From positions 1-38,725 of the forward strand of contig CASGDY010000020.1 of assembly GCA_949300355.1 (NCBI GenBank): a stretch of 38,725 nt of DNA, in the 5' to 3' direction. The position numbers and the translations under genes are program-made. The DNA comes from an uncultured Brachyspira sp. (GTDB lineage Bacteria; Spirochaetota; Brachyspiria; Brachyspirales; Brachyspiraceae). The notes under the pieces were generated by a model. The model was not told the origin of the DNA, ran no database searches, and saw only the letters and a program-made list of their open reading frames with translations. Below are positions 23,992 to 37,751 of the stretch, piece by piece. Each line of letters opens with the position of its first letter. The stretch's first letter is position 1.

Positions 23992-24070
23992 TGATTTTAT
24001 ATCAACTTTTAATAAAATAGAAAAGTTTAATTATTAAATAAGAATTTAAATTATAACATTTGTCTTTTTG

Positions 24071-24094
24071 CAACTTTGCCAAAAAAAGTTGATA
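24071..24094. repeat. CAACTTT hairpin repeat, copy 1
   Basis: CAACTTTGCCAAAAAAAGTTG is an imperfect palindrome flanked by TTTTG on one side and ATA on the other. On the minus strand it matches the hairpins at 27351 and 35045 (TATCAACTTTT...AAAAGTTGCAAAA). Confidence 0.65.
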
Positions 24095-24151
24095 TAATTT
24101 TTAATTTATCTAAAAATATAATAATTTTAGTTTTTTTGTTTTATTTTGAAT

Positions 24152-24352
24152 CCCCGCCCTTTTAAATTTATAGTTTTAATTTCAATTAAAAATTTTATTT
24201 ATATTAAAAGCCAAATCAGAAAAAGCATGCCCGCCCAAGTTTTATTTAAATTTATAATGCATATACCGCACGGTAAATAGATTTTTATATATGATTTAAA
24301 TTGAATTGATAATTAAACTTATATTTTTAACTTTGCTCACCGTGCGTTAAAA
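24152..24352 (+). repeat. GC-rich nested inverted repeat, copy A (right end missing)
   Basis: The stretch 23992-24446 has no gene. It holds, in order, CCCCGCCC (24152-24159), GCCCGCCCAAGTTTT (about 24229-24243), ACCGCACG (24265-24272) and CACCGTGCGTTAA (24338-24350). These are the left arms and centre of the family described at 37391; the right outer arms (AACTTGGGCGGG and GGGCGGGG) are absent. Confidence 0.7.
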
Positions 24353-24380
24353 ATAATGCAGTAAAAAAATGCAATAAAAA

Positions 24381-24446: not shown

Positions 24447-24788
24447 TTATCTTCCGTTTGATTTAAGCCACTCTTCGTTTATCTTTATTACTTCTAAAAC
24501 AGCACTCTCGCTAGGACTTCCAATCATTGTCTTGTTAGAAACCTGAGCCTCCGGAGTTATACAAGCATAAATATCATCTTCAAAAAGGTCTGACTCTTTT
24601 TTATATTCTTCTATTGAAAGAGTAGAAAGATTTTTGTTGTTGTTTATTGAGTATACTACAAGACGTCCAGAAACACCATGTGCATCTCTGAAAGGCATAC
24701 CCTTCCTTACAAGATAATCGGCAACCTCAGTAGCATTCAAAAATCCTTCATTAACAGAATTAAGCATATTATCTTTATTAACTTTCAT
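24447..24788 (-). pseudogene. argH: 3' fragment of argininosuccinate lyase gene
   Basis: This 113-residue frame is the C-terminal domain of ArgH: NKDNMLNSVNEGFLNATE, then ADYLVRKGMPFRDAHGVSG, typical of the family's C-terminal helix-turn region. It opens at an ATG inside the second copy of a 40-bp tandem duplication and repeats the last eight residues (MKVNKDNM) of the upstream fragment. Deleting one 40-bp copy restores a continuous ArgH of about 462 residues, the normal length. Without that repair the catalytic core and this domain are separate polypeptides. Internal initiation at this ATG is possible but no strong ribosome site is seen. Confidence 0.85.
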
Positions 24789-24844
24789 TGTTTTTAATAC
24801 ATTACATATTATCTTTATTAACTTTCATTGTTTTTAATACATTA
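24765..24844. repeat. Exact 40-bp tandem duplication inside argH
   Basis: 24765-24804 and 24805-24844 are identical over all 40 bases with no match beyond. Because 40 is not a multiple of three, it shifts the argH frame and creates the stop at 24804-24802. Confidence 0.97.
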
Positions 24845-25875
24845 GGAAGTATAGATAAACAATTCTTAACATTCTCTAAAGAATCAAATATACCCTCTTT
24901 GTCCTCCTGCATATCTTTATTGTATGCTAAAGGCAAAGACTTCATCACTGTCAATATAGAAAATAAATTTCCGTAAACCCTTCCAGTCTTTCCGCGAATA
25001 AGCTCAAGTATGTCCGGATTCTTCTTTTGAGGCATTAAACTTGAACCTGTTGTAAACTCATCATCAAATTCTACAAATTTGAATTCTGAAGTAGAATATA
25101 ATATAAGCTCCTCAGAAAAACGGCTTAAATGCATCATTATTATTGATAAAGCAGATTCCACCTCAATAACAAAATCCCTGTCAGATACTGCATCCAATGA
25201 GTTAAGCATAACATTTTTGAAATTGAGAGTTTCAGCAGTTTTTTTGTTGTCTATTTTGTAGGTAGAACAAGCCAAAGCACCTGCACCTAAAGGCATAACA
25301 TCTATTCTTTTGTAGGCATCAGTCAATCTGTCAAAATCTCTTTTAAACATCTCAACATAAGCACCTAAATAATGTGCAAATGTTATAACCTGCGCCCTTT
25401 GAAGATGTGTGTATCCGCTCATATAGGTTTTTGTATGCTCTTTTTGAATGCTTACCAATGTAGAAATTAAATCTAGTATTAAAGATTTTATATTCTCTGC
25501 TTTGTTTTTTAAATGCATTCTCAAATCAAGTGCCACCTGATCATTTCTGCTTCTTCCTGTATGAACTTTTTTTCCTACTTCCCCTACTCTATCAATAAGC
25601 CATCTTTCAACTTGAGTATGAATATCCTCTAATTCAAAATCAAATTGAAGTTTATTATTTTCAATATCATCTAAAATTTGTTTTAAACCATTTATTATAG
25701 TTACGCTTTCTTCAAGAGGAATTATTGAGCATTCTCCAAGCATTTTTGCATGTGCTATGCTTCCTAATATATCCTCTTTATACATCTTACAATCGAAAGA
25801 TAATGATGAATTAAAATCATTAGCTTCCTTGTTAAGCTCTTTAGAAAAGCGTCCCCCCCATAATTTTTCTTTCAT
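24802..25875 (-). pseudogene. argH: 5' fragment of argininosuccinate lyase gene (catalytic core, truncated)
   Basis: This 357-residue frame covers most of ArgH, which splits argininosuccinate into arginine and fumarate. The start MKEKLWGGRF, the HTGRSRNDQ and THLQRAQ motifs, and the fumarase/aspartase-superfamily signature GSSLMPQKKNP at 277-287 are all intact. It ends early, right after MKVNKDNM, because the 40-bp duplication brings in a TAA. The lost part is the C-terminal domain encoded by 24447-24788. The gene begins six bases after the argG stop, so the two are co-transcribed. Activity of the truncated form is doubtful; the tetramer normally needs the whole chain. If the duplication is an assembly error, the gene is intact. 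Confidence 0.88.
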
Positions 25876-32211: not shown

Positions 32212-33909
32212 ATGGATAATACTATATTCACTAAAAATATAGAACTTTTAAATAAAAATAAATACAATTTTAGGGCTGTAAAAAAATTAATAGAATATAA
32301 TACAGCTAATAATAAATATCAATTAAAGCAAGCTAAAAATGATTTGTTTGCTGTTATGTATAATAATAAACCTTTAACTTCTCTATATAATCCTATGGAA
32401 GAAGCTAAAAGATTAATATCTCAATTCATAACAAACAATAATGAACATATAGGAATATTTTTATCTATTGCTTCATTCTTTCATATAGAATATTTTTTAT
32501 CATTAAATGAAAATAACAAAGCAATCATAATAGAAAAAGATATAGAAATAGTTAAGCTTATTTTAGAGAATTTAAAGCCTTCAAATGAAAATATATTAAA
32601 AAATACAATACTCATTTTGAATGAAGATTTAGAAAATATATTGGCATTCTTTAATTTTTATATGAATGATAATGATTCTAAAAAAATAGTTTATATAAGA
32701 CATATAAGAGCTTCAAATATAGATGATGAAACAAGAGAATATTATGACAATGTTAATATATCTCTTGCTAACAGTATAAAAGAAAAATTAATGTCATTAA
32801 CATCTAATTATTATTTTGCTCCTATATGGGCTAGAAATACATTATATAATATGCATTTCAATGAAGGATACTCTATAAAAACATTCTATAATATATTAAA
32901 AAGAGAAACACCTGTTTTATTAGTATCTGCAGGAGCTTCGGCTGATGATTATATAGAAAATATTAAAGAACTATCAAATACTCATTTTGTTATAGTATTA
33001 TCGCATGCTTTTAATAGCTTAATAAAAAATAATATAAAGCCTGATGCTGTTGTATCTACAGACGGAGGTTTTTATTCATCGATACATTTAAAAGAACTTC
33101 TTAAAAAAGAAAATGAAAATATAAATATATTTACTACACATACAGCATACCCTTTTCCTCTTACTCATATAGAAAACAAAAGAATATTTTATTTCTCACA
33201 TGATGAAAGTTTCGAGAAGATATTATATCCTATAAATGATGATGATAATAACAATATATATTTCTATATGGAAGGAAGCGTTATAATGCCTGCTTTAAGA
33301 ATAGCATACATGCTTAATCCTAAATATATATTACTTGCAGGATGTGATTTTTGTCATATTGATGATAAAACGCATTCTAAATATTCAAATGCTTCTGCTC
33401 ATGATTATATTAACAGCAGCAAATTAAAAACTTTTGAATCTGCTAAATATAAAAGACTTAATGATAATCAAAAAATTAAATGTTATGATAATGTTTATAG
33501 AAATACTTCTTCATCACTTTTAAGTTATAAAAATCATTTTGAATCTTTAATTCAAGAAATTTCTGAAAGCACTGATGTTTTTACTTTAACAGTTCAATCT
33601 GCAAGCATAAAAAACGTAAAAATATACAATACTAACAATGTCAATTCTAATAATAAAAATATAGAAATTACAAGCTATTTAAAAGAGAATATAGATAAAG
33701 AAAAATTAGTAAAAGAAATAGACAATTTCATAAATAACATCAACAAGGAAAATATCAATAAAGAAGACTTTAATAACAATATGAAAAATATTGCTGATAT
33801 AATATCGCCTTGGCATGTTGAAAAATTTGAGAAGTCTGTTATAAGCTATGAAGAGTTAAAAAACTATATGAATAAATGGTACAATGATATAAAATTGCTT
33901 ATTTATTAA
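32212..33909 (+). CDS. DUF115/Maf-like motility-associated protein
   Basis: This 565-residue cytoplasmic protein has at its centre (about 232-290) the DUF115 (MptE-like) core: PVLLVSAGASADD, then an IVLSHAF segment and IKPDAVVSTDGG. This core is shared with the Maf flagellin glycosyltransferases and with 6-hydroxymethylpterin pyrophosphokinase-like enzymes. A flanking helical N-terminal region and an Asn/Lys-rich C-terminus complete it. With a FlgN-like gene and flaB in the same window, a role in flagellin modification is plausible but inferred. It is co-transcribed with the M15 peptidase (23-base gap). Confidence 0.8.
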   Translation: MDNTIFTKNIELLNKNKYNFRAVKKLIEYNTANNKYQLKQAKNDLFAVMYNNKPLTSLYNPMEEAKRLISQFITNNNEHIGIFLSIASFFHIEYFLSLNENNKAIIIEKDIEIVKLILENLKPSNENILKNTILILNEDLENILAFFNFYMNDNDSKKIVYIRHIRASNIDDETREYYDNVNISLANSIKEKLMSLTSNYYFAPIWARNTLYNMHFNEGYSIKTFYNILKRETPVLLVSAGASADDYIENIKELSNTHFVIVLSHAFNSLIKNNIKPDAVVSTDGGFYSSIHLKELLKKENENINIFTTHTAYPFPLTHIENKRIFYFSHDESFEKILYPINDDDNNNIYFYMEGSVIMPALRIAYMLNPKYILLAGCDFCHIDDKTHSKYSNASAHDYINSSKLKTFESAKYKRLNDNQKIKCYDNVYRNTSSSLLSYKNHFESLIQEISESTDVFTLTVQSASIKNVKIYNTNNVNSNNKNIEITSYLKENIDKEKLVKEIDNFINNINKENINKEDFNNNMKNIADIISPWHVEKFEKSVISYEELKNYMNKWYNDIKLLIY

Positions 33910-33921
33910 AAATAATAGTTT

Positions 33922-34138
33922 TTAAATATTAGAATTAAAATATAAAAGCGAGTCGTAGCCACCAAGTAGGTTATTGTAGGCTACAACTGCCGTAGGCAGT
34001 GGACTTCGTCGACGAGCATAGCAATAATAATAAATAATAATTTGTAAATATTAGAATTAAAACATAAAAGCGAGTCGTAGCCAGCTAGTGAGTTTACTCA
34101 CTAGCTTATTGTAGGCGTAGACGAGCATAACAATAATA
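33922..34138. repeat. Two copies of a variable-hairpin repeat
   Basis: The gene-free stretch 33910-34256 holds two direct copies, about 33922-34030 and 34043-34138. Both start TAAATATTAGAATTAAAA, then AAAAGCGAGTCGTAGCCA, and end GACGAGCATA.CAATAATAA. The middle differs. Copy 1 has GTAGCC/GGCTAC and CTGCC/GGCAG hairpins; copy 2 has a perfect nine-base stem, GCTAGTGAG-TTTA-CTCACTAGC. The rest of the stretch is plain AT-rich DNA. Confidence 0.78.
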
Positions 34139-34256: not shown

Positions 34257-34796
34257 ATGAAAAAAATTGTATTTGTGTTTATAACATTATTAACAATATC
34301 AATACAGGCATTCTCTGCTGCTGTAACAACACATTATAATAATTGGAAAATAAGAAGAATAACCTATAACAATACTGATACAAAAACTGTTACAATGACT
34401 ATAAAAAACAATAATAGTTTAGAAGTATATATAGCAGCTAGAAATAATCAAGTCAGCGTAAGCATAAACTGGTATAAAGATAAAGTAGATGAAAATACTC
34501 CTGTAGTAGAATATAGTTTCAATAATTCACCTTATAAATCTGTAGAGCCTTTTATGAGATCTTCAAGCGATAATTTCGATATATTATATACAATATCACC
34601 TGCTTTCGGAATCATACAGGAGAAAGAAGTTATTGAATTCTTAAGCAGATTAATAAACAGTAAAACTTTATCAATAAAAGCTAGCAGTAATAGTCAGGCA
34701 TATACTATTGATGTTACAGGATTAAAAGAGGCAATGCAGAAAACTGATTTCTCTGGAACTCTATTAGAAAAATATAAGAGTCAGATATTAAAATAA
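34257..34796 (+). CDS. Secreted protein of unknown function
   Basis: This 179-residue protein has a classical signal peptide (MKKIVFVFITLLTISIQAFSA, cleavage likely near residue 21) and no lipobox. The mature part is predicted to be mostly beta strand at first, with two-strand patterns such as TVTMTIKNNNSLEVYIAA and VSVSINWY, then a helical C-terminus (LLEKYKSQILK). It is likely periplasmic. I recognise no family. GGGAG precedes the ATG. It is alone between two repeat-filled stretches. Confidence 0.8.
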   Translation: MKKIVFVFITLLTISIQAFSAAVTTHYNNWKIRRITYNNTDTKTVTMTIKNNNSLEVYIAARNNQVSVSINWYKDKVDENTPVVEYSFNNSPYKSVEPFMRSSSDNFDILYTISPAFGIIQEKEVIEFLSRLINSKTLSIKASSNSQAYTIDVTGLKEAMQKTDFSGTLLEKYKSQILK

Positions 34797-34821
34797 TAAA
34801 ACTAAAAATTTTGACTTTATC

Positions 34822-35017
34822 ACCGCACGCAGAGCAAAACTAATAATATAATTTTAATAATAATTCAAATTTTATTATATTATAAAATTAAGTTCATCGT
34901 GCGTTAAATAGATTATAAATCTATTTAAAACTTGGGCGGGTGCTAAATTTATAATCAAGCTTTAAAGATAATTAAGATTGAAACTCAAGATAAAGCTATA
35001 AACTTTAAAGGGCGGGG
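34822..35017 (+). repeat. GC-rich nested inverted repeat, copy B (left outer arms missing)
   Basis: Part of the gene-free stretch 34797-35401. It has ACCGCACG (34822-34829) and CATCGTGCGTTAAA in the centre, then AAAACTTGGGCGGGTGC (34927-34943) and GGGCGGGG (35010-35017). The left arms seen in copies A, D and E are absent. Copy C follows in the same orientation. Confidence 0.72.
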
Positions 35018-35044
35018 TATGTAAGTAATCTCTTTATTTATTTT

Positions 35045-35082
35045 TATCAACTTTTCCCGCCGCAAAAGTTGCAAAAGTGCAA
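35045..35082. repeat. CAACTTTT hairpin repeat, copy 3
   Basis: CAACTTTT and the complementary AAAAGTTG flank CCCGCCGC, followed by CAAAAGTGCAA. It sits between nested-repeat copies B and C. Confidence 0.68.
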
Positions 35083-35139
35083 TTTATAATTAACATAAAC
35101 TATATTATTTTTATTAACATTATATTATAAATTTAGTTT

Positions 35140-35262
35140 ACTGTACGTTAAATAGATTATAAATCTAATTAAAACTTGGGCGGGTGCTAAAATTTCTAAT
35201 GAAGCTATAAATATAATTAAGATAAAAACTTAGGATAAAGCAGAAAATTTTAAAGGGCGGGG
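35140..35262 (+). repeat. GC-rich nested inverted repeat, copy C (right half only)
   Basis: It repeats the right half of copy B: CTGTACGTTAAATAGATT, AAAACTTGGGCGGGTGC (35171-35187), then AAAGGGCGGGGTATGTAAGTAAT. The two are close in sequence and direct in orientation, consistent with a local duplication. Confidence 0.7.
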
Positions 35263-35332
35263 TATGTAAGTAATTCTTTAAAGTTAATTTTATTCACTTC
35301 ATTTAGAAAAATAATTAAACTATAAACATATT

Positions 35333-35390
35333 AAAGTTATACTGTGAATATATAAAATTAAAACATTCCTAATAAACACAGCATAACTTT
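35333..35390 (-). terminator. Long hairpin after the LUD gene, terminator-like
   Basis: Fourteen-base arms (35333-35346 and 35377-35390) pair fully on the minus strand with one G-U. The loop is 30 bases and there is no T-run, so it may be an mRNA 3' end stabiliser rather than a classical terminator. Confidence 0.45.
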
Positions 35391-36034: not shown

Positions 36035-36118
36035 AAAAATCCCTCACTTACTTTTAAACTTTAATTTAGTATAGTACAAGTAATATTTTTTTCAAGCAAA
36101 TAAAATTTTATTCTAATT

Positions 36119-36401
36119 CCCCGCCCTTTTTATTTTATTATTTTATTTAGAAATTTTAATTTTAGTATTCCTATAACTTAATCAGAAATTTTAGCACCCA
36201 CCCAAGTTTTTTTAAATTTGTAACTAAAAATATAAATGTAATTATAATTCAAATTTTATCATTCTTTAAATTTCATTTACCGTGCGTTAAAAAATATTAT
36301 AAATCTAATCATCACTTTAGCGGGAATACTTTTTTATTTTGCATTAAAAAATATTTAAGGCTTATAAAATGAAATAAAATCAATGAAGTATGGAGGGCGG
36401 G
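36119..36401 (+). repeat. GC-rich nested inverted repeat, copy D (nearly full)
   Basis: Fills most of the gene-free stretch 36035-36490. CCCCGCCC (36119-36126) opposes GGGCGGG (36395-36401); GCACCCACCCAAGTTTT (36194-36210) opposes a degraded CACTTTAGCGGGAAT (about 36313-36327); and ACCGTGCGTTAA (36279-36290) lies near the centre. The first 100 bases are almost identical to those of copy E. Confidence 0.75.
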
Positions 36402-36490
36402 ATATGTAAAATAAATTTTAAGTAAAATACATTGACATAACTTGTTTTTCTTTTAGAATATTCATATTAATTTTTATTTAGGTTCTTATT

Positions 36491-37321
36491 ATGAAAGTAA
36501 TATTATCAATTATATTAATTTTATTTAATATTAATATTTTATATTCAATGAGTCTTTCTCCAGAAATTGGTATATTTATGAACATAGGCGGTTCAAAAAT
36601 TTTCACTAAAACAGAAGTAAATCAGAATGAATATTCATACCTTGTTGATTTCAAAACAATAAAAGGTGATATATTTGTAGATTTTGAAGCTATTTTTCAA
36701 TTAGGTGTAAAAAACAATATTAATAATAATATAGTTACTGGCTTAACTTCGCTTTTAGAAATAGGATACAGCCCATATATAATAAGTACAACATATAAAG
36801 GTAATGATAAATATAAAGATTATACTTTTACAGATAGAGTTTATCTTTATAGTTTAGTTTTAGGTGCTTTAGAAAAAATAGTTTTTAACAATTTTTCTAT
36901 AGGTATAGGAGCAGGTGTATTATTTCCAATATCTGGTTATGGTATTTCAAATAACCCTGAGAATGTAATAACATCTGTACTTATGCCAATAAGAAATGCC
37001 TCAATGATTTCACCTTATAGTAAGGAATTAGATTATGCATATATAAAAAAGATATTTAAAGTTCCTGTTGCACCATATATAAAGATAACTGCCGAATATG
37101 CATTCAGACCTTATAAAATGGATAATGCTGAAATGGATTTCGTACTTGGAGTATATTTGAATTATAACTTTGGTATGAAGTATGATACTTCTGTATTAAA
37201 TAGCATTATACCAGAATTACATAACGATTATGGCCCTAGCGGCGGAATGTTATATAAATATGATTATTCCAATTTGGATTTTGGTTTTACATTAGGTGTT
37301 TCTTTTAGAGCTTTAGAATAA
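36491..37321 (+). CDS. Predicted outer-membrane beta-barrel-type protein
   Basis: This 276-residue protein has a signal peptide (hydrophobic run to about residue 19, YSM). The remainder alternates hydrophobic and polar residues in short strands rich in Gly, Tyr and Phe, for example FVDFEAIFQLGV, VYLYSLVLGALEKIVF and DFVLGVYLNYNFGM. It ends FGFTLGVSFRALE, a pattern seen in small outer-membrane barrels. No family name can be given. An AGGT ribosome site precedes the ATG. It is transcribed alone and closed by a hairpin. Confidence 0.75.
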   Translation: MKVILSIILILFNINILYSMSLSPEIGIFMNIGGSKIFTKTEVNQNEYSYLVDFKTIKGDIFVDFEAIFQLGVKNNINNNIVTGLTSLLEIGYSPYIISTTYKGNDKYKDYTFTDRVYLYSLVLGALEKIVFNNFSIGIGAGVLFPISGYGISNNPENVITSVLMPIRNASMISPYSKELDYAYIKKIFKVPVAPYIKITAEYAFRPYKMDNAEMDFVLGVYLNYNFGMKYDTSVLNSIIPELHNDYGPSGGMLYKYDYSNLDFGFTLGVSFRALE

Positions 37322-37375: not shown

Positions 37376-37390
37376 AATTTTATTCTAATT

Positions 37391-37727
37391 CCCTGCCCTT
37401 TTTATTTTATTATTTTATTTAGAAATTTTAATTTTAGTATTCCTATAACTTAATCAGAAATTTTAGCACCCACCCAAGTTTTTTTAAATTTGTGCACCCA
37501 CCCAAGTTTTTTTAAATTTGTTGCTCTATTACCGCACGTAGAATAAAACTAAAAATAAAGATTTATTTATAATTCAAATTTTATTATTTTTTTAAATTTC
37601 ATTCACCGTGCGTTAAAAAAAGATTATAAATCTAATCAGCACTGGGCAGGAATGCCTTTTCTTTTTTAATTTATTAAGAAAATAGAAATACATAAATGTA
37701 ATTAGATAAAAATAGATAGAGGGCGGG
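37391..37727 (+). repeat. GC-rich nested inverted repeat, copy E (full), with internal 28-bp duplication
   Basis: This is the best full copy. The outer arms are CCCTGCCC (37391-37398) and GGGCGGG (37721-37727). The middle arms are GCACCCACCCAAGTTTT (twice) and CACTGGGCAGGAATGCC. The centre has ACCGCACG (37531-37538) and CACCGTGCGTTAAA (37604-37617). The 28 bases 37466-37493 are repeated exactly at 37494-37521. It occupies the gene-free stretch 37376-37751. Confidence 0.8.
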
Positions 37728-37751
37728 ATTTAGAAAAAAGCCATAAAACAA

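Follow-up and report, generated by a model that had tools for sequence, protein, structure and literature searches.

Genomes of Brachyspira contain an interspersed repeat family that is intergenic, confined to this genus, and apparently undescribed so far. We read it, with a probability of roughly 0.5, as an old noncoding and nonautonomous family of the BIME/MITE type, the motifs of which are under sequence-specific selection. The two parts of this reading do not stand equally firm: a mobile origin is favored on balance, and a current role in the host through protein binding is proposed only tentatively. The residual interest of the family lies in an apparent selection on motifs without pairing, in the absence of the REP machinery, and in a steep chromosomal gradient. 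No description of it was found in Brachyspira genome papers or by word searches in the openly readable literature.

Copies, range, and anatomy of the repeat

The family was identified in a window of 38,725 nucleotides (the whole stretch of DNA analyzed) from an uncultured Brachyspira, where it occurs at five places (Table 1); those close orthologous loci of the window that carry a name are all from Brachyspira. A preliminary description of the window had reported an ordered set of motifs at these five places, all of them intergenic, and both points are borne out. The six motifs, A (CCCCGCCC), B (GCACCCACCCAAGTTTT), C (CCGCACG), Cr (CGTGCG), Br, and Ar, are GC-rich within AT-rich DNA, and their spacing is nearly fixed, far above chance: 78 bp from A to B, 36 from B to C, 75 from C to Cr, and, on the right side, 28–29 from Cr to Br and 83–84 from Br to Ar. 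The copies are not equally complete. Those at 24152 and 34822 are half copies, the one at 35140 has a decayed core, the one at 36119 lacks the left core motif, and the one at 37391 is partly duplicated and decayed. The copies had also been called directly oriented. The arms, being close to mirror images of each other, do not allow such a reading; polarity resides in the core only.

Table 1. Copies of the repeat family in the window
Position	Strand	Form	Motifs	Match	Setting
24143..24353	+	Half copy (arm A-B + core X)	A 24152-24159, B from 24230, C 24266, Cr 24341	nhmmer, 141.7 bits	Between convergent CAP-domain gene (end 23991) and argH piece (24447-24788, minus strand)
34809..35025	+	Half copy (core X + arm Br-Ar)	C 34823, Cr 34898, Br 34927, Ar 35010	151.4 bits	Core starts 13 nt past the stop codon of 34257-34796
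35103..35271	+	Second half copy, core decayed (ACTGTACGTTAA)	Br 35171, Ar 35255	Motif and profile match	
36110..36409	.	Full copy (arm-core-arm), left core motif C deleted	A 36119, B 36197, Cr 36281, Br decayed, Ar ~36395	155.3 bits	Divergent intergenic region
37382..37733	.	Full copy, named in the preliminary description; right motifs decayed (GCACTGGGCAGGAATGC, GGGCGGGA)	A CCCTGCCC 37391, B doubled (37469, 37497) by a 28-bp direct duplication, C 37532, Cr 37607, Br decayed, Ar ~37720	Motif and profile match	Terminators of two convergent genes on either side

Some neighboring features of the window deserve mention. The argH piece has its own hairpin terminator, which adjoins the core end of the first copy. 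Two reading frames (24447-24788 and 24802-25875) that jointly encode argininosuccinate lyase meet at a perfect 40-bp tandem duplication (24765-24844), so that the frameshift may be genuine or may stem from the assembly. A separate 68-bp direct repeat (AAAAGCGAGTCGTAGCCA..., 33905-33972 and 34027-34094, 87% alike) lies in the gap before the gene at 34257. Another intergenic sequence, TTGCAACTTTTGCGGCGGGAAAAGTTGATA, often adjoins copies of the family, both in the window (24059-24095 and 35045-35085) and in L012, L020, and G009 (around 2875833).

An iterated profile of 330 columns, scored in bits with nhmmer, finds 53 copies in 400 kb of the closed relative G009, 57 in 400 kb of G013, and 22–23 in 319 kb of G004. 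Over 2.0 Mb of G009 (1.6 Mb plus 0.4 Mb, the interval 1.6–2.6 Mb being covered by pattern matches only), the profile finds 130 copies. The strict core pattern CGCACGN{63,73}CGTGCG has 27–144 matches per genome in 23 of the 26 Brachyspira genomes (102 in the genome that the window comes from), two in G010, and none in G006 and G021; its reversed control has no match in any of the 26. The composite pattern CCCAAG...CGCACG...CGTGCG is positive in the same 23 genomes and absent from 270 other spirochaete genomes, including those of the same family and order, and BLAST with long queries gave only weak matches beyond the genus. The family is thus dispersed and high-copy, and the possibility, raised with the preliminary description, that its copies are confined to this locus is false. 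An origin from plasmids or phages was rejected after searches without matches, in collections where Brachyspira is thinly represented.

The repeat is modular. A core X of about 80 bp (CGCACG...CGTGCG; 79–81 bp in 157 of 201 cases), nearly always complete, is flanked on one or both sides by arms of about 115 bp with CCCRCCC motifs, which gives half copies of about 220 bp and full copies of about 330 bp. Among 193 oriented cores, a single arm is found on one side in 64 and on the opposite side in 63; 59 carry two arms, and 7 carry none. Two arms may also be joined end to end by a palindrome Y (GGGYGGG...TTAAGTTTTAAAACTTAA...CCCRCCC), which measures 49–50 bp in 32 of 43 cases. Successive cores are 330–359 bp apart in 24 of 29 neighboring pairs. 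Cores have a clear polarity, with CGCACGCAGA on the left and ACCGTGCGTTAAAT on the right (median orientation log-odds of 15), and both members share their orientation in 28 of 39 close pairs. The regular spacing, the joint, and the polarity together indicate that the repeating unit is a directional X-arm-Y-arm of about 346 bp. In G007 (C1, 2494348-2495625), at least four closely similar cores form a cluster with spacings of about 233–469 bp, a possible recent tandem expansion.

Turnover of copies and comparison with known systems

Sites without the repeat in relatives, which the preliminary description had proposed to look for, were found. The gap 34797-35371, which holds two half copies in the window, holds a single one in L019 and measures 18–64 bp without any copy in L017, L018, L020, L021, and L024, with a single short hairpin in the last four. 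Likewise, two convergent terminators that directly adjoin in G009 have a half copy between them in G013, and a joined pair of 555 bp in G013 is absent from G009, which retains the terminator. Such empty sites imply that the family has spread. Copies also change by whole modules: at one site, X-arm-Y-arm-X (443 bp) in G004 corresponds to a single X (112 bp) in G009, the exchange lying within about 10 bp at the core end. The window copy at 36110 has orthologs in L012, L019, and G004, and is 99% identical over 111 bp to the copy at 37382. G009 and G013 have instead one full copy, with the left flank of the former and the right flank of the latter, and lack the gene between them (36491-37321). The repeats provide places at which recombination removes flanking genes, this gene being an example; they could also confuse assembly, and they offer typing markers. 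The gene itself has no Pfam match.

The likeness of distant copies in the same genome does not exceed 84%, higher values being found only among neighbors. Thus the family is old, its copies having been inserted or precisely lost on the time scale of species. No two copies far apart were found to be nearly identical, so that the sampled genomes show no recent mobility. The search for target-site duplications, also suggested earlier, gave no clean case at pairs of empty and filled sites, where the AT-rich flanks are about 90% alike at best. A matching transposase was not found either: among the 26 Brachyspira genomes, none has a Y1/RAYT transposase (PF01797; control genomes were positive), and none has an integron integrase (TIGR02249) above the cut-off. 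No gene was seen inside any copy. Hence, the earlier proposal of a nonautonomous mobile element is partly supported, by the dispersal, the copy number, the empty sites, and the gains and losses of 346-bp units, but not by a transposase or target-site duplications, and the copies are old. The family would have spread as nonautonomous DNA into gaps past the ends of genes; by now, recombination between modules would account for most changes of the copies.

Among the closest parallels are REP, BIME, and REPIN sequences, extragenic and palindrome-like units to which host proteins may bind (PMC2817692, PMC3733652). The Brachyspira family resembles them in being high-copy and extragenic, with single, paired, or arrayed units mostly at the 3′ ends of genes and in convergent gaps. 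It differs from them by its unit of about 220–346 bp, against 20–40 bp for REP, and by the two palindromic centers of this unit. A REP/REPIN system driven by a RAYT (IS200/IS605-like) was rejected on the absence of such proteins given above. MITEs, including Correia/NEMIS and ERIC-like elements, provide another example of short, noncoding, dispersed intergenic sequences with empty sites in relatives, and their terminal inverted repeats have a counterpart in the mirror-related arms of full copies. Unlike them, the present family occurs in half, full, and joined modular forms and has no young identical copies, and no target-site duplication or parental transposase (Y1 and integron integrase having been searched) was found for it. 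BOX elements of pneumococci and similar repeats consist of ordered modules in variable numbers. In the Brachyspira family, the modules are a core combined with mirror arms joined by a palindrome.

The cores also recall the attC arrays of integrons, which share a directional imperfect palindrome of about 80 bp and a regular spacing of units. One could then regard the copies as relict integron cassettes, X being an attC-like site and arm-Y-arm-X the cassette. The right end of X, GTTAAAT (60%–96% per base), fits GTTRRRY, the core length varies between 79 and 81 bp, a C.C mismatch is conserved inside the stem, the polarized units of about 346 bp form direct tandem arrays, and at one site exchange between two X lies within about 10 bp at the core end. 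Yet the left end, TTTAC-CG, does not match RYYYAAC, the units are noncoding, the cores stand alone with neither attI nor an integrase ahead of them, and no IntI exceeds the cut-off in the 26 genomes, as noted, which makes this origin highly improbable.

Placement near genes, folding, and motif constraint

Copies are concentrated behind genes. With naive gene calls, gaps between convergent genes account for 28 of 58 sites, against 20% of intergenic bases (p = 1e-6). Of 29 core ends no more than 40 nt away from a gene, 28 are turned to its 3′ end. Where a core end bears no arm, it tends to fall between −8 and +25 nt from a stop codon, and full copies often lie past intrinsic terminators, as at 37391. 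A role as simple terminators is not favored, as separate terminators flank several copies.

The preliminary description had suggested that a copy could fold into one long interrupted hairpin and that the family might be a structured regulatory DNA or RNA. Thermodynamically the hairpin is possible, as full copies fold better than their shuffles (mean z of −5.0; −2.7 for the core X), but no covariation stands behind it. Arms of the same copy are no more complementary than arms taken from different copies. The variable bases of B and Br are anti-correlated (p = 0.004), and those of A and Ar are independent (p = 0.70). In oriented cores, pairing is 0.564 against 0.561 in shuffled ones (z of 0.81); the significant deficit of pairing in unoriented cores came from the mixture of orientations and is gone after orienting. 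Arms that do not covary had been named as evidence against the proposal, and this is what arms, cores, and variable bases show. These results do not support an RNA or DNA hairpin kept by selection; copies fold well because their ancestral design is mirror-like.

The same data bear on the idea that the copies act as hairpin RNAs of 3′ untranslated regions, as terminators or stabilizers of transcripts running from the gene through X and the arms. The position of core ends relative to stop codons and the strong folding speak for it, as does Y, a perfect palindrome followed by T-rich sequence. We nevertheless find it very unlikely: besides the missing covariation in core and arms, many full copies lie beyond or between the intrinsic terminators of genes (e.g., 37391 and the G013 site) and so are unlikely to be transcribed, half copies retain A and B though the partner arm is absent, and no Rfam family matches the repeat.

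The motifs are nonetheless conserved. In 41 pairs of orthologous copies, consensus positions are 96.6% identical when they are GC in motifs (n = 1392), against 91.0% for AT in spacers (n = 6513) and 85.1% for GC in spacers. The difference between motif GC and spacer AT has p = 7e-14, in a test that repeats an earlier comparison with pairs that are not all independent. As the genome has 27% GC, GC positions should decay faster, and their preservation points to selection on the motif sequence, or to gene conversion between copies, which could have the same effect. Alternatively, the copies may be selfish, decaying MITE remnants under no present selection, the conservation being an artefact of finding intact copies. 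Partial copies are indeed many, presence/absence differences and 346-bp changes are observed, and in G009 a core has decayed after its arms were lost. However, the second genome of the constraint test was not subject to ascertainment, and motif GC positions change less than half as often as AT ones despite the base composition, so that we regard this alternative as rather unlikely.

Constraint on motifs without pairing points to recognition of the duplex sequence. In the BIME/MITE-like reading that we prefer, the CCCRCCC and CGCACG/CGTGCG blocks would be read as double-stranded DNA by a putative DNA-binding protein, either a mobilizing recombinase that may since have been lost or a nucleoid or chromosome-domain protein of the host; such recognition would keep the motifs conserved in place. 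Most Brachyspira species have dozens to well over a hundred such repeats and yet no REP-type transposase. The family thereby offers an independent test of whether extragenic repeats are kept by host proteins or by a transposase.

Distribution along the chromosome

In G009, the number of convergent gaps is nearly constant along the chromosome, and their occupancy is concentrated in one half of it. In 200-kb steps from 0 to 1.6 Mb, the repeat occupies 40%, 24%, 18%, 11%, 4%, 0%, 4%, and 0% of these gaps, and between 2.6 and 3.0 Mb it occupies 30% and 32%. In four closed genomes with differently placed dnaA, directional exact cores are centered far from this gene, at 0.47 (G016), 0.42 (G019), 0.37 (G009), and 0.41 (G013) of the genome (Rayleigh p of 6e-7, 5e-10, 7e-5, and 1e-5, respectively). 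A putative genus-specific protein acting on CCCRCCC and CGCACG, motifs that recur at even spacing, might mark or fold the half opposite dnaA, the repeats being chromosome-organizing sites, an idea that we hold to be quite unlikely. The dnaA region has been reported as the most syntenic part of the chromosome (PMC2897892), so that slower turnover there is an ordinary alternative for the gradient.

On the basis of GC skew, the origin of replication of Brachyspira has been located elsewhere than at dnaA (PMC3532143). Together with the changes in the sign of the GC skew of G009 near 0 and 1.46 Mb, this suggests that the repeat-rich half is probably the half of the skew-defined origin. In G009 (C1), dnaA is at 1.17 Mb, the cumulative GC skew peaks at 1.46 Mb and has its minimum near 0, and dnaA is thus not at the skew-defined origin.
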